Part shown: positions 49,698 to 59,822 of the stretch, one piece after another | Position numbering within the stretch: the stretch's first letter is position 1 | Layout of the letters: each line of letters opens with the position of its first letter | Assembly: GCA_019913005.1 (NCBI GenBank) | Contig: JAIOHL010000085.1 | Span: 1-59,822, forward strand | DNA length: 59,822 nt | Direction of reading: 5' to 3' | DNA from: Anaerolineae bacterium | GTDB taxonomy: Bacteria > Chloroflexota > Anaerolineae > Aggregatilineales > J027 | Notes under the pieces: model-generated | What the model saw: the letters and a program-made list of their open reading frames with translations, nothing else | The model's database searches: none | What the model was told of the DNA's origin: nothing | Made by a program: the position numbers and the translations under genes

Positions 49698-50339
49698 TTA
49701 TGGCAGGATCACCACATGCACGCGGGTTGGGCCATGCACCCCCATGACTAATTCCATGGCGATGTCGGCGGTACGGCTTGGGCCAGAAATAATCACATGC
49801 GCGGCGGCAGAGCGGAAATGCTGCAAACCTTTGGCTAATTGAGCATCAAACCACGTTTCGAGGTCGGCGATGATTTGGTCAGGGGTTATCACCGCAATAT
49901 GCAGAGCAGGCAGGAGGGATGCTTGGCGCGGTTTACCCGACCCACTGCCCAAGACTATGCTGCCTGTGGAGGCGAGTGCCGCGTCTGCCCCTGTGATGCC
50001 AACCCGCACCGAGCCATCGCGCACATCAGCGATTTGGATTCCAGCGGCGGACAGCGCATCGGATAATCCCGGCAAGGGGATATGCGCAAAATCCCACGTG
50101 ATGACCGATTTGTTTTCACCACACAGCGCTAGAATTTGTTCAATGGCATCGGCATGGCTGGCGGGTTCGGATACTTCACAGGCCAGTTTTTTCGCTTCTT
50201 CCACAAAGCGTTTTCGCAAAGCGGCGGAGGTTTTATCCGCAATCGGCACCATATGTAAATAGGTGTCGCGCTTGGGCAGGTCGGTGAATGGCTTGGGTGC
50301 GGCGCGGAGTTTGGCAAGAATTTCTTCACGGCTACCCAT
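49698..50339 (-). CDS. lutC: Lactate utilisation protein LutC
   Basis: A 213-residue LUD-domain protein started at ATG 50339 with GGAGGG upstream; the longer frame lies in lutB. It contains GITGADAALASTGSIVL and DIAMELVMGVHGP, LutC hallmarks. With LutA and LutB it forms the iron-sulfur L-lactate oxidation complex. The start overlaps the lutB stop. Confidence 0.93.
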   Translation of the reverse strand: MGSREEILAKLRAAPKPFTDLPKRDTYLHMVPIADKTSAALRKRFVEEAKKLACEVSEPASHADAIEQILALCGENKSVITWDFAHIPLPGLSDALSAAGIQIADVRDGSVRVGITGADAALASTGSIVLGSGSGKPRQASLLPALHIAVITPDQIIADLETWFDAQLAKGLQHFRSAAAHVIISGPSRTADIAMELVMGVHGPTRVHVVILP

Positions 50340-51765
50340 TATGCGACCCTCCATTATTGCTATTTTTCGCGGCTTGGCGTTCTTTCCAAAGTTGATGGAA
50401 TGATTTGGGAGCAAAGTTCGGAAAATCCCGATAATCTGTCCACCCCCCTAATGGGCCGGGAAAATTATTTTTCAAAACATGGTTGCGACCAAAACGCGCC
50501 ATTGCACCTCCCATCTGGAACAGGCGGGGTGATTTGTTGCCGATGGCCCAGAATCTAATACCAATGTCCCAAATCTTGCCTGTTTCGCCGCGTTCAACCA
50601 GATCATGGCGCAGATCAAGCAGCATACGTGGGATGTCAATATTGACCGGACAAACCTGTTTACATGCCCCACATAGGCTGCTGGCTTGGGGCAGCGGGCT
50701 GGCATTTTCGAGGCCGACCAATAAGGGGGTAACAATCGCACCAATTGGCCCCGCATAGACCCACCCATAGGCATGACCGCCCGTAGAACGATACACCGGG
50801 CAGGCATTTTGGCACGCCCCACAGCGGATACAGGCCAGCGCCTCGGCATAATCGGTGTTGTAAATGTTGGTGCGCCCGTTGTCTACCAAAATCACATAGA
50901 CATGCTCCGGGCCATCACTTTCACCGGGTTGGCGCGGGCCATTAATGATGTGGGTGTAGACGGTCATGACTTGCCCCGTCCCACTGCGCGGCAGGACTTG
51001 GGTCAGGGTAGCATAGTCTTTAACAGTCTCGACCACTTTTTCGATGCCCACAATGGCGATATGCACACGTGGCAGGGTCGTACACATGCGTCCGTTGCCC
51101 TCATTCGTGACCAGACAAATTGAGCCGGTTTCCGCCAAGATAAAATTCCCACCGGAAATGCCCATATCGGCCTCAAGGAAATAGCGGCGCAAATGGGCTT
51201 GGGCGAATTTGGTCATCTCGCCCGCATCATCTGTAGGAGTCATACCCAATTCTTTGACCATCAAATCGCGGATTTCCGGCTTGGTCATATGGATAATCGG
51301 CGCGAGGAGGTGACTGGGGTGGGTTTTGCCAATTTGCACGATAAATTCACCGAGATCGGTTTCAATGACTTCCATACCCTCGGCTTCAAGCACATCATTT
51401 AGCGCGACCTCTTCCGTCACCATGCTTTTGCTTTTTGCCACGAGGCGGACATTGTGTTTTTTGGCGATTTCAACCACCAGTCGACACACTTCCTGACTGC
51501 TCTGTGCCCATTCCACCACGATGCCATTGGCTTTCATATTGGCTTCGGCTGTTTCGAGCAGGTCAGGCAAATTCCGCAGGGCACGGCGTTTGGCTTCGGC
51601 GGCTTGTTGACGCATGGCCTCGCCGTGTTCCAATGTGGGTGTGGACATGGCGATGTTGCGCTTGACATAGGAGTTGCGTGTGCCAGTTGTCACAGCCTCT
51701 TGGATATTGGGGTTGCGGATGGCGATTTGGGCCGCCGGGATGAAATTTTGTGATTCGACCTTCAT
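50332..51765 (-). CDS. lutB: Iron-sulfur L-lactate dehydrogenase subunit LutB
   Basis: A 477-residue protein with a LUD domain and two C-terminal 4Fe-4S clusters, CIRCGACQNACP near 314 and LCGACKQVCP near 365. LutB carries electrons from lactate oxidation. The 40-residue N-terminal extension before MSTPTLEHGEAM is longer than usual; an internal ATG there is an alternative start. lutA ends 4 bases upstream. Confidence 0.94.
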   Translation of the reverse strand: MKVESQNFIPAAQIAIRNPNIQEAVTTGTRNSYVKRNIAMSTPTLEHGEAMRQQAAEAKRRALRNLPDLLETAEANMKANGIVVEWAQSSQEVCRLVVEIAKKHNVRLVAKSKSMVTEEVALNDVLEAEGMEVIETDLGEFIVQIGKTHPSHLLAPIIHMTKPEIRDLMVKELGMTPTDDAGEMTKFAQAHLRRYFLEADMGISGGNFILAETGSICLVTNEGNGRMCTTLPRVHIAIVGIEKVVETVKDYATLTQVLPRSGTGQVMTVYTHIINGPRQPGESDGPEHVYVILVDNGRTNIYNTDYAEALACIRCGACQNACPVYRSTGGHAYGWVYAGPIGAIVTPLLVGLENASPLPQASSLCGACKQVCPVNIDIPRMLLDLRHDLVERGETGKIWDIGIRFWAIGNKSPRLFQMGGAMARFGRNHVLKNNFPGPLGGWTDYRDFPNFAPKSFHQLWKERQAAKNSNNGGSHNG

Positions 51766-51769
51766 GGTG

Positions 51770-52549
51770 CTATTTCCCCTCTCCCGCTAGGCCTTCCGCC
51801 AAGACATCGGCGATATGACGGACTTTTTTGCTTGACCCCTTGCGCGATAACCCACCATTCATCTGGGTGAGGCAGCTTGAATCGCCTGTGATAATAACGC
51901 TGGCGGCTGAGGCGTTGATATTTTTGACCTTCTTTTGCAGCATGGCCCCACTGACATCCGCCATTTTGACACTGAACAGGCCGCCAAACCCACAGCAGAC
52001 CTCATGTTCATTGAGTTCGGCGATGGTGGCGTTTTCAACATTGCCAAGCAAGGTGCGGGCCGCTTGACCCAATCCGAGCAGGCGCATCCCATGACAGGAA
52101 TCATGAAACGCGAAGGTCATGGGTTGGGATAGGCGGGCTTTCAAATCGGTGATGCCTAAGCCATCCACCAAAAATTCGGTGAATTCCCATGTGATCGAAA
52201 CAATGCGTTCCGCTTCGGCTTTCCAGTGGGGGTCATCTTCAAACAGCACCGGATATTCATGTAACACCATCGCCGCGCATGAACCAGAGGGTGTAACAAT
52301 CACTTCAGAATCTTTAAAGGCTTTCAAAAATTGGATAGCGACCTGCTTGGATTCACTGTGATAGCCGGAATTATAGGCGGGTTGACCGCAGCAGGTCTGG
52401 GCCATTGGGAAATCTACTTCAATGCTGAGGTGTTCCAAAATGTTGACAACTGACATGCCCGTTTCAGGGTACATCATGTCAATCATGCACGTTACAAAAA
52501 GCGAGACTTTTTTGCCTTTGGGGGAAGGTCGCTTAGAATCATGCGCCAT
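51770..52549 (-). CDS. lutA: Fe-S oxidoreductase subunit LutA
   Basis: A 259-residue protein with two CCG domains, TCCGQPAYN near 56 and VCCGFGGLF near 187, typical of LutA and glycolate-oxidase-type Fe-S subunits. First gene of lutABC; the operon lets the cell grow on lactate. No lldR/lutR-type regulator is adjacent. Confidence 0.94.
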   Translation of the reverse strand: MAHDSKRPSPKGKKVSLFVTCMIDMMYPETGMSVVNILEHLSIEVDFPMAQTCCGQPAYNSGYHSESKQVAIQFLKAFKDSEVIVTPSGSCAAMVLHEYPVLFEDDPHWKAEAERIVSITWEFTEFLVDGLGITDLKARLSQPMTFAFHDSCHGMRLLGLGQAARTLLGNVENATIAELNEHEVCCGFGGLFSVKMADVSGAMLQKKVKNINASAASVIITGDSSCLTQMNGGLSRKGSSKKVRHIADVLAEGLAGEGK

Positions 52550-53230: not shown

Positions 53231-54094
53231 TTACCCTTTGACTGCGCCGGCGGTTAAGCCTTCAATAATGCGGCGTTGGAAAACTAAGACGAGGACCAAG
53301 AGGGGTACAGTGACGACTACTGCTCCGGCAATTTTATCGGCAATGGGTATTTCGTAGCTGTAGCCTGCAAATTGCCCAATGGCGACTGGTACGGTGTGAG
53401 CATCTTTGCTGACTAGGTTGAAGGTCAAAGCAAATAGATATTCGTTCCACGCTGAGATGAATGCCAAAAGGCCTGTTGTCACGAGGGCTGGGGCAGTAAG
53501 CGGAATGAGGATACGCCAAAAAGTTTGAAAGGCGGTTGCTCCATCCACTAGTGCAGCCTGCTCAATCTCGTCGGGCAATCCTCGGAAGAAACTCGTCAAT
53601 ACCCAGACCGTAAAGGGGAGCGTGAAAATTGGATAGGTAAACATCAGCGAGAGCAGTGATCCATTAATCCCCAAGTCTTTCACCGTCTGGTTTAGACCGG
53701 AAAGGATGGAAATTTGGGGGAACATGGTCATCGCCAATACTAAATAAAGGATGATCATGCGTCCTCGAAAGCGAACCCGCCCCAAGGCATAAGCTGCAAA
53801 TGCGCCGACGACCAATGACAATACCACCGTTACGCTGGAGACAATTGCCGAGTTGAGCATTGTCCGCATAAAGGCACTGTCACTCAGCAAGTTTTGGAAG
53901 TTTTCTAGATTTGGGTCTTCTGGTAAATATCGCGCTCCATTAAGCAGCACTTGTTGATTGGTGCGGAAGGATATGCTGATGGCATAGACGAAGGGGGCCA
54001 TTGTATAAAAGGCGACAACAATGACTAAGACCCAAAAGAAACCCCGACTTAGAAATTGAGTTACTTCCTTTCCAGAAATGTTCGATTGGTTCAT
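53231..54094 (-). CDS. Sugar ABC transporter permease, MalG type
   Basis: A 287-residue permease with six helices. The EAA loop is seen as EQAALVDGATAFQTFWRILIPL near 190, which docks the ATPase. MalG-type permeases form the inner-membrane channel with a MalF partner. Its start overlaps the MalF-like stop by ATGA. No ATPase gene lies in this operon; a shared MsmK-type ATPase elsewhere is likely. Confidence 0.93.
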   Translation of the reverse strand: MNQSNISGKEVTQFLSRGFFWVLVIVVAFYTMAPFVYAISISFRTNQQVLLNGARYLPEDPNLENFQNLLSDSAFMRTMLNSAIVSSVTVVLSLVVGAFAAYALGRVRFRGRMIILYLVLAMTMFPQISILSGLNQTVKDLGINGSLLSLMFTYPIFTLPFTVWVLTSFFRGLPDEIEQAALVDGATAFQTFWRILIPLTAPALVTTGLLAFISAWNEYLFALTFNLVSKDAHTVPVAIGQFAGYSYEIPIADKIAGAVVVTVPLLVLVLVFQRRIIEGLTAGAVKG

Positions 54095-56001
54095 TCTTGC
54101 TCTAGCCTCACAATTCTTACATAGGTAACGGTAAAGATGAGAATGAGCATGAAAATAATCACGCCAATGGCGGACGAATAGCCTGTTAGACCACCTTGAA
54201 TTAGTCGGTCATAGTTATATAAGGCCATTGAGGGGCGTGTCGCATCCAACAACACCGAGAATACGTCGAAGGCACGCAAGGCATCCAGTGTGCGAAATAC
54301 CAATGCAACCGCAATGGTGGGACGCAGCAGTGGTAGGGTGATGGTAAAAAATTGGCGGACTTTGCCAGCGCCATCCACATCGGCGGCCTCATAGACGTCG
54401 GCGGGAATGGTTTGTAAACCTGCTAGGAGCAACAAAGCCATGAATGGCGCTGTTTTCCAAACATCTACCGCGATAATTGAATTCATCCACGGGCCTGTGG
54501 TCGCTAACCACTGTTTGGCTTGCGAGATGAGGCCTATATCTAATAGTAGTTTGTTTAGGATACCGGTCTGGTCACCACGCATGATGACTTCCCACAGGGC
54601 TGCTGAAACGACGGTTGGGATCGCCCAAGGCACTAGCATGGCAGTACGCATCAATCCACGCCCGGTAAATTTGGAGTTGACCACCATAGCGATGATTAGC
54701 CCCAAGAGAAGTTCAAGGGTAACCGAGATAAAAGTGAATTGGAGGGTGTTGCTAAAGCTCTTGAGGAATTGAGGGTCTTTACCTAATAGACGTAGACCAG
54801 AATCGCCCCCGAATAGTTGCCATGTATATGCCTCTTGATAGCGTTTATAGGTGCGTCGTTCGGCGGACGACATCTCGCGTAGTTTTTCACGCTCCTCAAT
54901 CTCAGAGGCAGATAGTTCCCAAACGATTCCCCCTTCTCCACGTACCCGTTCGCAATTTCCACTATCGTCTTTCTTACAGTCCACCATCACAAATTTAAAA
55001 CTTAACAATTCTTGGTAGTTACGTAGCCCGACAAAGCGACTGGGTTTGGGGCTTCCGAATTCTTCATCGGTCAGGCTCGCAATGAAGGTTTGTTCCAAGG
55101 GTTGGGCTGCAACTAGAATCAATACCGCCAGCGTAGGGATGAGCAAACTCCATGCAAATCGAGTATTGCGGGATGTGAGAGATTCTTCCCCTTCAAACAA
55201 GTCGTTAATAATGCGTGACAGCCACCAGAGAGCCACACCGAGCGGGATTGCCGCGATGAGATAGGGGATCGCCCCGCCAACAGCCTCACTAAAGTTAAAT
55301 GGATGGTCGCCAACCAGTCCGCCTTTGCCATCAACCCAAAAGGCACGAATTGCAGCGACAATTAGACCAACGATGAGCCAAAGGAAGGCAATCATTGCCC
55401 AACGGGCAGAGATGAGATCAAATTTACGCAGGCGGACTCCCAAACGGAAAATGAGAATCCCGATCACGATGGTTAAGAACGGCACAATGATGCCAAAAGT
55501 ATTGAGATAGGCAATTATGAAGGTAGGGGCGACATTTTTAATAATGGTGCGTTCTTGTGGGCTAAATTCACCGTTTTCTAGTGGTCGCAGGAATTCGATG
55601 CTTATTTCAAAATCATCGTCGGCTCTTTTAACATCAGGTTCTTGTAGAAGTCGGTCAACTTGGGCAACTGAAAAACCGGGAGTAATTTCAGTGTCTTCCA
55701 CCTTCGTAAGCCGATCCCCAGCCCGCACGCCCTTTTCCTCTGCTGGGCCACCCGGGGCCGGGATAATCTCGAAATAGGCTACTTCCCCTTCGGGTTCTAC
55801 TTTACGGACTTCAATCCCGATGCCTTCAATTTCCAGACCCTGCGTGGCATCTTTGATCTCAGGACTGGTCGCAATTGCATAGAAGAGATAGGCAAATGCC
55901 AGCAAGCCGATAATCATCAATAGGCCACTCACTAGTTCTAGTGAAATTGTCTCCTGTTCAGTAGGGCGTCGTCGTCCACTCCTCGGCGGAATTATCGTCA
56001 T
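54091..56001 (-). CDS. MalF-type sugar permease with N-terminal membrane-PDZ module
   Basis: A 636-residue protein started at ATG 56001, with GGAGGG seven bases upstream. Residues about 282-636 are a normal MalF-type permease with the EAADVDGAGKVRQFF coupling loop near 545. Ahead of it is an extra module: a helix (21-43), an extracytoplasmic PDZ-like domain (about 55-145) with GGPAEEKGVRAGDRLTKVE, and three further helices (about 160-185, 200-222 and 240-262). Cys341 and Cys350 in the first periplasmic-side loop could form a disulfide. Normal MalF proteins of this class are about 300 residues. The PDZ domain may bind protein tails or the binding protein. Confidence 0.9.
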   Translation of the reverse strand: MTIIPPRSGRRRPTEQETISLELVSGLLMIIGLLAFAYLFYAIATSPEIKDATQGLEIEGIGIEVRKVEPEGEVAYFEIIPAPGGPAEEKGVRAGDRLTKVEDTEITPGFSVAQVDRLLQEPDVKRADDDFEISIEFLRPLENGEFSPQERTIIKNVAPTFIIAYLNTFGIIVPFLTIVIGILIFRLGVRLRKFDLISARWAMIAFLWLIVGLIVAAIRAFWVDGKGGLVGDHPFNFSEAVGGAIPYLIAAIPLGVALWWLSRIINDLFEGEESLTSRNTRFAWSLLIPTLAVLILVAAQPLEQTFIASLTDEEFGSPKPSRFVGLRNYQELLSFKFVMVDCKKDDSGNCERVRGEGGIVWELSASEIEEREKLREMSSAERRTYKRYQEAYTWQLFGGDSGLRLLGKDPQFLKSFSNTLQFTFISVTLELLLGLIIAMVVNSKFTGRGLMRTAMLVPWAIPTVVSAALWEVIMRGDQTGILNKLLLDIGLISQAKQWLATTGPWMNSIIAVDVWKTAPFMALLLLAGLQTIPADVYEAADVDGAGKVRQFFTITLPLLRPTIAVALVFRTLDALRAFDVFSVLLDATRPSMALYNYDRLIQGGLTGYSSAIGVIIFMLILIFTVTYVRIVRLEQE

Positions 56002-56116
56002 GGAAAAGCCCTCCATTCTAAGATCAAAATATTTTTCGAGGGATATAACTAGCAGTGAGGGCAGATTGCTCTGCCCCCAGTGAAATCAAATCGTCAATAT
56101 TCGATTGGTAGGGGTG

Positions 56117-57433
56117 CTATTCAGGTAGCTCATAGCCCAAGTCGGCAAGTTGTAGTTCTAAATCTGCCATCGCAGTTGCGGCGTCGGCTTCACCTGTTAG
56201 GACAGAGTGAACGGCGGTGAAGTACAATTGCGAGACATCACCATAGCCGGAACCAGAGACAGTCGAAGGACGGGCTACGGCAGCTTCCAAAATAGTCTTG
56301 AAGAGACTGATATAGGGCAGTTGTTCTTGAATTTGAGGGTCTTCATAGACCGCTGGGCTAACGGGTTGTTCACCACGCAACAGGGTGTATTTGACCTGTG
56401 CATCGTAGCCAGAGAAATATTCAACAACGGCGACGGCGGCATCGGGATTTTCCGAATACTTGGAGACAGCTAACTGCCAACCACCGAGGGTCGCGGCGCT
56501 CATACCGGCTTCACCACCGGGCAGGGGCGAAACACCAAAGAGGTCTTTGATAGGGCTGTCATCGGCCTGACCGAGTGGGTAGGCATAACCCCAATTGCGC
56601 ATGAAAGCGGCGTTACCAGCTTGCCACACGCCACGAGCATCTTCTTCACCGAAGGTAATGACGTTGTCGGGGCTGATGGAACCAACCCAACTGGCAGCCT
56701 TGTCAAGAATGTTAATCGTGGGTTCGTTATTGACTTCGATCACGCCTTCGGGGCTGAGGATGGTGCCGCCGCCAACCGACGCCTGCCATTCGAGCGCATC
56801 ACAGGTCAGACCTTCATAGGCATTGCCTTGGAAGACAAAACCCCAGAAGTCCGGGTTGCCCGCAGCGCGTTCACCTTCTTGAATAGCGGTTGCAGCAACT
56901 TCCAGTTCATCCCATGTTTGGGGAACCTCAAGGCCATATTTTTCCAACAGGTCAGTACGGTAATACAGCATCCCAACGCCAGTAAACCACGGCAGCGCCA
57001 CCAAACGACCATCAACGGTGTTGTTGACAATGTTGGAAGCTACAAAGCTGTCAACGGTTTCTTGGCTGACATATTCGTTCAGGTCAAGCAGATGTTCGGC
57101 AAAAATGCCGGGCCAAATCACGTCAATTTGGTAGATATCAATTTCGCCACTTTGGGCATCGAAGAATTGTTGATACTGACCGAGGGTTTCGGTTGAGTCC
57201 TGCGGACGGGTGGTCACTTCAACAGTAATATTGGGGCACAGGGCCATAAAGTCATCGGCAAGGGCTTTTACTGCGTCTAATTCATTGCCGACGGTGCCAG
57301 CAATGACGGTAACGGTAACTTCTTCTTCAGTCCGGCAATCGAATGCAGCGGCATCTTGGGCAACGACCCCACGCGGGACGATTGCGAAGGCAACCACCGC
57401 TACCAAAGCAAAAACCAGCAACTTCTTAAGCAT
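56117..57433 (-). CDS. Sugar ABC transporter substrate-binding protein
   Basis: A 438-residue family-1 solute-binding protein with a signal peptide (residues 1-26, cleaved near VVAQDAA) and a CDALEWQASVGGG and GGWQLAVSK pattern of maltose-type binding proteins. It has no lipobox, unusual for a cell without a periplasm, so anchoring may rely on the permease PDZ module or another partner. A GGAAAGG site precedes the ATG. No sugar is assigned. Confidence 0.92.
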   Translation of the reverse strand: MLKKLLVFALVAVVAFAIVPRGVVAQDAAAFDCRTEEEVTVTVIAGTVGNELDAVKALADDFMALCPNITVEVTTRPQDSTETLGQYQQFFDAQSGEIDIYQIDVIWPGIFAEHLLDLNEYVSQETVDSFVASNIVNNTVDGRLVALPWFTGVGMLYYRTDLLEKYGLEVPQTWDELEVAATAIQEGERAAGNPDFWGFVFQGNAYEGLTCDALEWQASVGGGTILSPEGVIEVNNEPTINILDKAASWVGSISPDNVITFGEEDARGVWQAGNAAFMRNWGYAYPLGQADDSPIKDLFGVSPLPGGEAGMSAATLGGWQLAVSKYSENPDAAVAVVEYFSGYDAQVKYTLLRGEQPVSPAVYEDPQIQEQLPYISLFKTILEAAVARPSTVSGSGYGDVSQLYFTAVHSVLTGEADAATAMADLELQLADLGYELPE

Positions 57434-57657
57434 GTCTAAAACCTTTCCACTCTTGCTCTAAATGATTATGAATATCTACAATAGGTTCGCTGCACACAGC
57501 AGGCAACCTTCCGTTATTGACACCCCAACGATAGTTTAACACGTCGTCCGATATTCAACCCTCCTTTAACTAGATTTGCTTAAACACTCTCAAAACAATC
57601 CATAGATTGGGAAGTAATCACATCTAATTTGAACTCGGCACATTACATCTTGCCTAT

Positions 57658-58680
57658 TTATGCGCTGGCTCGTTCAATAACTGTGAGAGCCAACTCCACA
57701 TGCCAATGATCCGGCTTAAAACTCCCCGTTTTTAACCGTTCGAGCATATATTGCGCCCCTAGTTCACCGCTGTGAAAAAGCTGCTGATTGACGGTGGTAA
57801 GGCGCATATAGCTGGCGGCTTTGACATCATCAAATCCGATTACCGCAACATCATCTGGAGACTTCATTCTCAACTTATCTATTGCGGCTTGCACACCAAA
57901 AGCCAAAGTATCGTAGGCGGCAAAAATAGCGGTGGGACGATTTGGCAATGACAGGATGTGAAGGGCCTGTTCGCAAGCGGAATATTCATTGGGAGCGCCA
58001 AACCGATACCATTCCTCATTAAGAGGCAAACCAGATTGGAGCAACATTTCCTTCATGCCCTTAAATCGTCGTTGACTGCTGGTAAAGCCGGATTCGTTTT
58101 CAAACGCACTTTCGATCACATGTCCAACAAAGCCGATTTTGCGATGCCCCTTTTTGATTAGATATTCGGCTGCCATCCGCCCACCTGCCACATTGTCAAT
58201 AAAGATATGGGGATAGTAATCCTGCGGATCATGGTCAACCGCGATCAAGGGTAACTTAAGGTTCATGCGGCGGAGTTCTTCAGGGGTGAAGGTTTGGAGC
58301 AGAAATGAGAGCACAATCAACCCATCAACCGCAACCTGTGCGCCGATTTCACGCAATTTGCGCTGCGTTTGCTGCGGATGTCGAATACTGTAGAGCACCA
58401 AATCATAATCGTGGTGATCTAACACATCTTGAATACCCGCAAGGCGTTCCACGAATGAAGGGTAAGTGAGGAAGGGAGTGATAACACCTACAGTGGATGT
58501 TTTTCCCCCGGAGAGTTGGCGTGCGGCTTTGTTTGGACTAAAGCCAAGTTCGGCTATCGCTTCAAGGACTTTTTGGCGCGTACCATCAGCAACCTGTGGA
58601 CTGCCATTAATCACCCTTGAGACGGTTCCAACTCCTACCCCTGCTCTTTGGGCAACGTCTCTAATTGTTGGTGTTCTCAT
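57658..58680 (-). CDS. LacI-family transcriptional regulator
   Basis: A 340-residue repressor, started at ATG 58680 so that the TIRDVAQRAGVGVGTVSRV helix-turn-helix begins at residue 5. The hinge helix (NKAARQLSGG) and a periplasmic-binding-like sugar sensor follow. It is divergent from the kinase gene and upstream of the ABC importer on the same strand, so it probably senses the imported sugar. Two operator palindromes in its own promoter indicate autoregulation. Confidence 0.94.
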   Translation of the reverse strand: MRTPTIRDVAQRAGVGVGTVSRVINGSPQVADGTRQKVLEAIAELGFSPNKAARQLSGGKTSTVGVITPFLTYPSFVERLAGIQDVLDHHDYDLVLYSIRHPQQTQRKLREIGAQVAVDGLIVLSFLLQTFTPEELRRMNLKLPLIAVDHDPQDYYPHIFIDNVAGGRMAAEYLIKKGHRKIGFVGHVIESAFENESGFTSSQRRFKGMKEMLLQSGLPLNEEWYRFGAPNEYSACEQALHILSLPNRPTAIFAAYDTLAFGVQAAIDKLRMKSPDDVAVIGFDDVKAASYMRLTTVNQQLFHSGELGAQYMLERLKTGSFKPDHWHVELALTVIERASA

Positions 58681-58710
58681 AAAAAAGTCATTAGCACTAA
58701 TTTTTCGGAT

Positions 58711-58730
58711 ATTTGGAAACGTTTCCAAAT
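58711..58730. promoter_or_regulatory. LacI-family operator 1
   Basis: ATTTGGAAACGTTTCCAAAT is a perfect 20-bp palindrome with the GGAAACGTTTCC core typical of LacI/CcpA-type sites. It lies just downstream of the expected lacI transcription start, 31 bases before the start codon. Confidence 0.8.
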
Positions 58731-58739
58731 TCTTTCCAC

Positions 58740-58768
58740 AGTATATCTGGAAACGTTTCCATTGTCAA
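58740..58768 (-). promoter_or_regulatory. Promoter of the LacI-family gene
   Basis: On the minus strand TTGACA (58768-58763) and TATACT (58745-58740) are separated by exactly 17 bases, a near-consensus sigma-70 promoter. The second operator fills the spacer. Confidence 0.75.
58748..58761. promoter_or_regulatory. LacI-family operator 2
   Basis: TGGAAACGTTTCCA is a perfect 14-bp palindrome with the same core as operator 1, centre to centre 34 bases apart, and sits between the -35 and -10 boxes. Binding would block RNA polymerase. Confidence 0.8.
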
Positions 58769-58781
58769 ATTCTATTGACAA
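58762..58781. repeat. Inverted repeat in the lacI/kinase intergenic region
   Basis: TTGTCAA and TTGACAA are exact reverse complements separated by 6 bases, abutting operator 2 and overlapping the lacI -35 box. It could bind a second regulator or reflect two opposed -35 elements. Confidence 0.4.
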
Positions 58782-58846
58782 TTTGTCTACAATTGTTCCT
58801 ACCACTACACTTGAGAATATTTTATGTAAGGATGTAAACTTATTAT

Positions 58847-59822
58847 ATGACAGACGCGCCGCTTCCCCCCATTTCCACTGGGCAAACCATCAAAGGCTAT
58901 GAATTGGAATACGTGATTGGCAAGGGTGGTTTCGCCGTTGTTTATCGCGCCTATCAAGCCCTTGTAGAGCGTGAAGTTGCCGTTAAGATATTTGATCCTC
59001 AATTTGCCAACCACCCCAATTTCATTCGCCGCTTTGAACTGGAAGCCCAAATTATTGCCCAATTGGAACATCTCCATATCGTGCCGCTGTATGACTATTG
59101 GCGCGAACCGAATGCCGCTTATATCGTGATGCGACTGTTTAAGGGCGGCAACCTTAGCGAATCTATCCAGAAAAATTCATGGGGATTGACCGCCGCTGCT
59201 CGGCTACTCAATCAAGTCGCTGCTGCCTTGTCACATACTCACCGCAAAGGGGTGGTGCATCTTGACCTCAAACCTTCCAATATTTTGTTAGATGAAGAAA
59301 ACAACGCCTATTTAGCCGATTTTGGGATCGCCAAGAAATTGGTGGGCAAAGCGGATGCCACCCAAGAAGAGGGACTATTCGGTTCACCGGCCTATATGTC
59401 GCCGGAACAGATTCGTGGCGAGGCTATTACCCCGCAGGCGGATGTATACAGTCTCGGCGTGTTGCTGTTTGAGGTGCTGACCCGTCAATTACCCTTTGAT
59501 GAACTGACTGATACGGCTTTGATGGATCGGCATTTGTTTGATCCCGTGCCAGCCGTCAATGAGATACGGGGTGATCTGCCCCCGGTAATCAATGAGGTGA
59601 TTCAGCGAGCAACAGCCAAAAAATTAGAGGTGCGCTATGCCGATGTGTTGAGTTTCGCAGCGGATTTTACACGGGTGGTCGAATCGGTGGAAGGGCTTCA
59701 AATTGCTTCCGGCGGTGGCAAAATTACCGAGAATCCTGATAGACCGAGTGGTCAGACGGTCAAGTTTGGCCCAACGACGGAGGTATCACGTAAAACGCAA
59801 ATTATTACCCCCATCATTTCCC
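58847..59822 (+). CDS. Ser/Thr protein kinase, 3' end beyond window
   Basis: A gene translated here by hand from ATG 58847; 325 codons are visible and the frame runs off the window. The kinase domain fills residues about 22-270: GKGGFAVVYRA (glycine loop), VAVKIF (ATP Lys), HLDLKPSN (catalytic loop), ADFGIAKK and SPAYMSPEQ. The residue before the catalytic Asp is Leu, not Arg, so it is a non-RD type kinase. It is close to PknB-type kinases, and the sequence after about 270 is a Ser/Thr-rich linker. Confidence 0.93.
   Translation, partial: MTDAPLPPISTGQTIKGYELEYVIGKGGFAVVYRAYQALVEREVAVKIFDPQFANHPNFIRRFELEAQIIAQLEHLHIVPLYDYWREPNAAYIVMRLFKGGNLSESIQKNSWGLTAAARLLNQVAAALSHTHRKGVVHLDLKPSNILLDEENNAYLADFGIAKKLVGKADATQEEGLFGSPAYMSPEQIRGEAITPQADVYSLGVLLFEVLTRQLPFDELTDTALMDRHLFDPVPAVNEIRGDLPPVINEVIQRATAKKLEVRYADVLSFAADFTRVVESVEGLQIASGGGKITENPDRPSGQTVKFGPTTEVSRKTQIITPIIS

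Follow-up and report, generated by a model that had tools for sequence, protein, structure and literature searches.

A PDZ domain in the first outer loop of a MalF-type sugar permease from an order of Anaerolineae

In the absence of an outer membrane, bacteria need a means of retaining their substrate-binding proteins close to the cell, normally a lipid anchor or a fusion. The window, a stretch of 59,822 nucleotides from an Anaerolineae bacterium, encodes a sugar importer in which roughly 280 residues at the N terminus of the MalF-type permease had been read from the sequence as a helix, a PDZ-like domain and three more helices. PDZ domains normally occur in proteases, and here, in a group of Chloroflexota, one belongs to a membrane subunit of a sugar importer. 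The locus raises the question of whether this arrangement is genuine, how it arose, and what such a domain could do at the outer face of an importer.

The PDZ permease and its operon

On the minus strand, the frame at 54091–56016 was intact, with no interruption. The ATG at 56001 is the start common to relatives, which have N termini resembling MTxIPP..RRxPTxQE, and it gives a protein of 636 residues. The Pfam permease model BPD_transp_1 matched with E = 1e-17 (64.9 bits, cut-off 26.4), and the top NCBIfam models for the permease were UgpA and MalF, both far below their own cut-offs. The features of the operon are listed in Table 1.

Table 1 Features of the importer operon in the window.
Feature	Coordinates	Strand	Basis or remark
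Second permease, MalG type	53231..54094	-	Start overlaps the stop of the PDZ permease by 4 bases
MalG residues 37–79, end of helix 1 and outer loop P1, with signs of rebuilding in the PDZ clade	53858..53986	-	Column comparison
PDZ-bearing MalF-type permease	54091..56001	-	636 residues and stop; longer start possible at 56016
BPD_transp_1 permease core, residues 431–628	54118..54711	-	Pfam
Outer P2-type loop, residues 311–409	54775..55071	-	Alignment and AlphaFold model
Extra P2 stretch, residues 371–380	54862..54891	-	Occurs with the PDZ, absent from PDZ-less homologues
Three more helices of the N-terminal extension, residues 161–268	55198..55521	-	AlphaFold model; common to PDZ-less homologues
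PDZ domain, residues 55–159, first outer loop	55525..55839	-	Pfam, CtpB fold match, block missing in PDZ-less homologues
Carboxylate-binding loop Gly60-Ile61-Gly62-Ile63	55813..55824	-	Alignment equivalent of CtpB Gly113-Ala116; Gly60 and Gly62 invariant
Helix 1, residues 15–45, N terminus inside (RRR precedes)	55867..55959	-	AlphaFold model and sequence charge
C-terminal tail GYELPE of the binding protein, residues 433–438	56120..56137	-	Sequence and alignment
Solute-binding protein, alpha-glycoside type, signal peptide without lipobox	56117..57433	-	Just upstream of the PDZ permease
LacI-family regulator	57658..58728	-	Upstream of the operon; start uncertain

The AlphaFold model contained a helix at residues 15–45, five strands and two helices within residues 63–154, and helices at 172–191, 196–224 and 237–268, followed by the permease. 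Pfam and AlphaFold thus agreed with the layout in the original prediction. The whole permease had a mean pLDDT of 74.9 and a pTM of 0.58; the extension and the PDZ domain (PDZ blocks 75–89) were modelled better than the permease core. Judging by the charge pattern, with Arg before helix 1 and a basic stretch after helix 2, the PDZ domain is outside the membrane, where it had been predicted to be.

It is extremely improbable that a frame error or an assembly join of two genes produced the PDZ permease. The frame through residue 280, where such an error had been suspected, was unbroken in the window and in three congeners (93–99% identity), and the helices and the permease lay in a single frame across 30 aligned loci (one of which, L023, ends at a contig edge). 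The frame was full-length, or nearly so, without a break in 16 genomes, and other genomes had longer loops. A fusion artefact was ruled out by the intact frame in the congeners and the 30 aligned loci.

The PDZ-like domain proved to be a real PDZ. PDZ_6 matched residues 82–122 above its cut-off (E = 3e-8, 33.7 bits, cut-off 27; Pfam), and the modelled domain superposed on the CtpB PDZ (4c2c) with a Z score of 13.1 and an rmsd of 2.1–2.5 over 88 residues (VIA-align). The PDZ stretch was nearest to the D1 C-terminal protease in a phmmer search (E = 4.6e-6), and the NCBIfam model of the C-terminal processing peptidase (prc) matched weakly, over the PDZ only (E = 2.6e-4, residues 58–124 of the 641-residue frame). 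The PDZ domains of CtpB, CtpA and the D1 protease share with it the fold (Z 12–13, rmsd 2.1–3.0) and the GIG carboxylate loop, but the permease PDZ is inserted in a transporter loop and comes without the S41 protease domain, as no Peptidase_S41 match was found in the PDZ permease by a Pfam scan at E = 1. The Pfam scan also placed no substrate-binding domain in the permease chain, where only a chance-level match (E = 0.1) was seen beyond PDZ and BPD_transp_1.

The importer context is that of a MalF-type system, with the binding protein and the second permease adjoining the PDZ permease. The MalF/MalG and SugA/SugB pairs of the CUT1 importers MalFGK2 and LpqY-SugABC share with the window set the BPD_transp_1 core, the outer loop that precedes it, the paired permeases and the adjoining binding protein. 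Fold matches of the window permease included MalF (9bcr, Z 17.9) and SugA (7cad, Z 17.4), in lists from which the absence of other families proves nothing. The SugA chains have 305–307 residues, and hence do not have the four-helix extension of the PDZ permease. We know of no PDZ domain in MalF/MalG or SugA/SugB permeases. Among the literature matches listed, from a search that most subscription papers lie outside, none described a PDZ domain in an ABC permease.

The binding protein was 46% identical (Z 54) to the protein in 6j9w, which we take to be the alpha-glycoside-binding protein of Thermus thermophilus, and it matched 6jai, a variant of the same protein, with E = 4.5e-114. An alpha-glycoside is therefore the likely substrate of the importer. 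The binding protein had no lipobox, as originally noted, but neither did any of the 29 SBP_bac_1 proteins parsed in the window genome (34 matches, 30 with loci, L206 left out), as judged by a simple regular expression on an N terminus chosen by rule. Absence of the lipobox was consequently rejected as the reason for the PDZ. Profiles for Lgt and LspA matched in all 21 genomes searched, and the Omp85 outer-membrane profile matched in none of the 21; together with the lipobox count, this makes it likely that the cell has one membrane only and anchors few of its binding proteins by lipid.

Distribution and origin of the PDZ insertion

Searching 154 genomes of the order with the N-terminal 280 residues gave matches with E values of 1e-8 or lower in 52. 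In 19 of the 154 genomes the match spanned the PDZ stretch (G000, G001, G003, G004, G005, G007, G009, G012, G019, G021, G025, G026, G035, G040, G048, G053, G055, G063 and G065), while in the other 33 it started near residue 150–167, beyond the PDZ. The relatives were metagenome-assembled Anaerolineae or Chloroflexi, some of them filed under Aggregatilineales. The same fusion was found, in the survey of homologues first suggested with the prediction, in a single clade. In the alignment, the PDZ stood out as a sharply bounded insert separating helix 1 from helix 2 (residues 56–107 and 109–148), accompanied by the short P2 block. All 19 clade members matched a PDZ model at E = 0.01; 13 were above a model's cut-off, and the six below (L064, L066, L069, L075, L076 and L080) were called PDZ by alignment. 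None of nine PDZ-less rows, scanned one by one, matched a PDZ model.

Three clade members had two or three PDZ units, one of these being counted by eye. The permease of G009 (L072) had two PDZ_6 stretches in the loop, and that of G007 (L074) had one PDZ by Pfam, or about three when read by eye. In G005 there were two PDZs in the first loop and one more inside P2 (E = 2.3e-7). The permease gene of G005 is split across two contigs (L139 and L140), with ends overlapping by 101 bases. A permease without a PDZ match in G077 (L102, 5432–7300) has about 100 extra residues in its P2 loop.

The original prediction had called the layout unusual, and the searches outside the order bore this out. No comparable protein was found with the N-terminal query in 400 genomes of the phylum; this search gave 35 matches beyond the own genome (best E = 6.7e-7), and the ten that were scanned were nine S41 proteases and one CcmF. 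Among 396 genomes of the class, no full-length match outside the order was found at E = 1e-60, with scoring limited to three candidates in each genome. Other orders of the class had permeases without the extension, as well as PDZ-less ones that matched from residue 157–160 (G828, G759). A scan of a species collection relied on two permease peptide patterns, with the best 80 of 94 taken, and a PDZ on a distant permease could escape it.

The PDZ-bearing permeases formed one branch (SH-aLRT 99) in a tree of 57 rows, 19 of them with a PDZ, which was built from stop-to-stop frames with columns less than 70% filled dropped and in which the PDZ-less sister L077 is a long row. Their binding proteins likewise formed one branch (SH-aLRT 99) in a tree of 63 rows, 13 from PDZ operons, after 15 of 78 rows were omitted as near copies or short. 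Both trees came from short searches and have SH-aLRT support only. On this permease tree, the PDZ would have been inserted once, in an ancestor within this Anaerolineae order. The PDZ is a real, inherited feature of this lineage, inserted on the outer side of a sugar importer, and it was co-inherited with the adjoining binding protein and MalG. Since the PDZ has a single origin on these trees, this co-inheritance counts as one event and not as a repeated correlation. The presence in other orders of permeases without the extension and of PDZ-less ones with the helices suggests a likely stepwise order, in which a canonical permease gained the helices, then a PDZ, and then more PDZs.

A congener, G002 (L077), had the same neighbours and a PDZ-less set at the same locus. 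Its binding protein, permease and MalG were 55%, 52% and 59% identical to those of the window; the gene directly after the operon was 63% identical, and the remaining flanking genes were 80–99.5% identical. The first 21 residues of its binding protein, the signal peptide, were identical to those in the window. This pattern is apparently what a swap of the three-gene cassette (operon at 53231–58728) within the genus would leave, with the exchanged part starting directly behind the signal peptide. G002 offers a natural control for the PDZ.

Changes in the partner proteins

To describe what else distinguishes the clade, columns were called clade-specific if 75% or more of the PDZ clade shared a residue that occurred in no more than 5% of the remaining sequences. 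From residue 160 on, 20 of the 25 clade-specific columns of the PDZ permeases were in outer loops, which make up 160 of 461 columns (Fisher p = 2.5e-6), and 13 of the 17 in MalG were within residues 37–79, 42 of 286 columns (p = 3.8e-9). These p values are descriptive, as the loops and the MalG region were chosen once the first lists had been viewed, and columns that share a branch lack independence. Trp37 and Lys44 of MalG were kept in all 61 PDZ-less MalGs, compared to Tyr and Arg in 18 of 19 members of the PDZ clade. In a first PDZ-less control clade, the corresponding counts were 17 of 36 for the permease (p = 0.067) and 2 of 14 for MalG (p = 0.64); in a second, they were 3 of 12 and 0 of 2. 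The binding protein had eight clade-specific columns (44, 76, 83, 353, 355, 358, 372 and 394).

In the maltose importer of Escherichia coli, MalE contacts P2 of MalF and P1 of MalG, according to the title of Daus et al. 2007 as cited in PMC3150292. The outer face of both permeases appears to have been rebuilt along with the PDZ, and the affected columns show signs of adaptation of a docking face. The changed loops could instead reflect a new substrate, because the position of Arg49 of the Thermus binding protein, a residue mutated in ligand studies according to structure titles, is Thr in 16 of 19 members of the PDZ clade (Thr83 in the window). It is Leu, Arg or Ile in 34 PDZ-less binding proteins and Arg in 25 of 25 outgroups. 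The sugar specificity of the PDZ clade may accordingly differ from that of its relatives.

The C terminus of the binding protein was also compared. The pattern [FY]x[LFA]P followed by zero to three residues ended all 19 binding proteins of the PDZ clade, compared to one (L083, GFTVPGE) of the 34 from PDZ-less members of the group. Among the 29 SBP_bac_1 proteins parsed in the window genome, this pattern ended only the binding protein of the PDZ operon. The residues beyond the tail Pro varied (none, E, Q, EE or EME). Residues 431–438 were modelled as ordered, with a pLDDT of 93, and the Thermus protein aligned across the tail span.

Outside the group, 47 binding proteins of other loci were parsed, including those of L102 and L212, which count as outgroups only in a wider sense, and none of the 47 matched the strict pattern. 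By eye, binding proteins of Trueperaceae, Syntrophomonadaceae and similar groups ended in TGF...P or TGF..E. Binding proteins from 25 of the 27 outgroup loci had Gly in 24, Phe in 23 and a Pro aligned with the tail Pro in 17; examples of these PDZ-less tails are TGFPTGTP, TGFDAE and GFPTAQ (L121). A looser pattern wrongly scored the LFGE end of L162 and overlooked GFPTAQ, and the tail-change counts derived with it (6 and 3) were set aside. A conserved C-terminal TGF-type tail was shared by the binding proteins of PDZ-less homologues at outgroup loci L089–L121. Because PDZ-less outgroups carry similar tails, the tail is probably ancestral and would predate the PDZ. The view that it evolved as a PDZ ligand, suggested by the counts of 19 of 19 and one of 34, was downgraded for the same reason.

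Possible roles of the PDZ domain

In the reading that we prefer, the MalF-type subunit of a CUT1-type importer, probably one for alpha-glycosides, acquired a Ctp-type PDZ in its first outer loop. The PDZ would sit at the mouth of the translocator, beside P2 and the P1 loop of MalG, and would give the soluble binding protein a further docking module, by which it is held or positioned; where the PDZ has multiplied, this platform would be larger. Capture of the binding protein, an idea already contained in the original prediction, gains plausibility from the changes in the outer loops of both permeases, which fall in the same clade, although neither capture by the tail as such nor the missing lipobox as its reason was supported. 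We consider the chances of this putative docking role to be about even. Building an interaction domain into the permease itself would make a simple and testable docking device. In GlnPQ and OpuA, too, the substrate catcher stays with the transporter, through covalent fusion, whereas the window importer would do so, if at all, through an added docking domain. We more tentatively suggest, and regard as rather doubtful, that the importer holds its soluble binding protein by a PDZ arm grown from the permease, as a third way beside the lipid anchor and covalent fusion, with tandem or P2 PDZs in some lineages.

One alternative is that the cognate binding protein inserts its free C-terminal tail (GFELP or GYELPE) into the peptide groove of the PDZ, with the tether replacing a lipid anchor. 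The near-exclusive occurrence of the tail pattern in the PDZ clade and the GxG of the carboxylate loop, invariant in the 11 single-PDZ rows compared, are consistent with this. In CtpB, residues Gly113-Ala116 form the loop that holds the C terminus, and ends such as Val-Pro-Ala and Ala-Tyr-Val bind, whereas an Asp-Ser-Glu end served as a non-cognate control, according to PMC3808539. The V118Y change in CtpB abolishes peptide binding (PMC3808539), and its counterpart in the window permease is, by alignment, V65. The similar tails of PDZ-less outgroups, the ordered model of the tail with the Thermus protein aligned over the same span, and the variable residues past the Pro, with an acidic Glu at the end in the window, argue against it. 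Tail capture, above all for tails ending in Pro, is a possible reading, although an unlikely one and not the leading one.

The PDZ might otherwise bind C termini of other outside proteins, such as secreted glycosidases or damaged envelope proteins, and thereby recruit them or regulate the importer. Its fold and loop are those of a Ctp/HtrA-type PDZ, the CtpB PDZ selects C termini (PMC3808539), and more than one PDZ-like unit was present in three clade members. However, no candidate partner recurred next to the operon from family to family, with nine neighbours scanned, and such ligands would leave the rebuilt P1 loop of MalG unexplained, so that we give this role little weight. An equally improbable alternative is a PDZ without any ligand, which would be a folded spacer bracing the P2 loop and the four helices of the extension. 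A stronger constraint on the peptide groove than on the rest of the PDZ was not found: the two scored 1.05 and 1.16 bits, the groove being hardly more conserved, in 11 single-PDZ rows (eight near copies or multi-PDZ rows omitted) with groove positions assigned by analogy to CtpB, without coordinates. The conserved patches YFE (76–78) and DDF (129–131) sit off the listed groove positions, and the extra P2 stretch appears solely together with the PDZ. Against a mere spacer, the GxG within the G-x-G-hydrophobic loop was kept in all 11 rows, and PDZ copies multiplied, one of them within P2.

The neighbouring genes gave no clue to a ligand or substrate. Those scanned encoded GreA, an HD hydrolase, UvrB and PHP, among others, in one family, and two had no Pfam match; several were housekeeping genes with no link to the importer. 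Elsewhere in the window, three genes at 49698–52549 resemble the lactate-utilisation set LutA/B/C, as recognised by eye. At about 58750–59822, the window encodes a part of 325 residues that is 95% identical to a protein of 1500 residues in L061 (2666–7165), which matched kinase, nSTAND1 and WD40 models.
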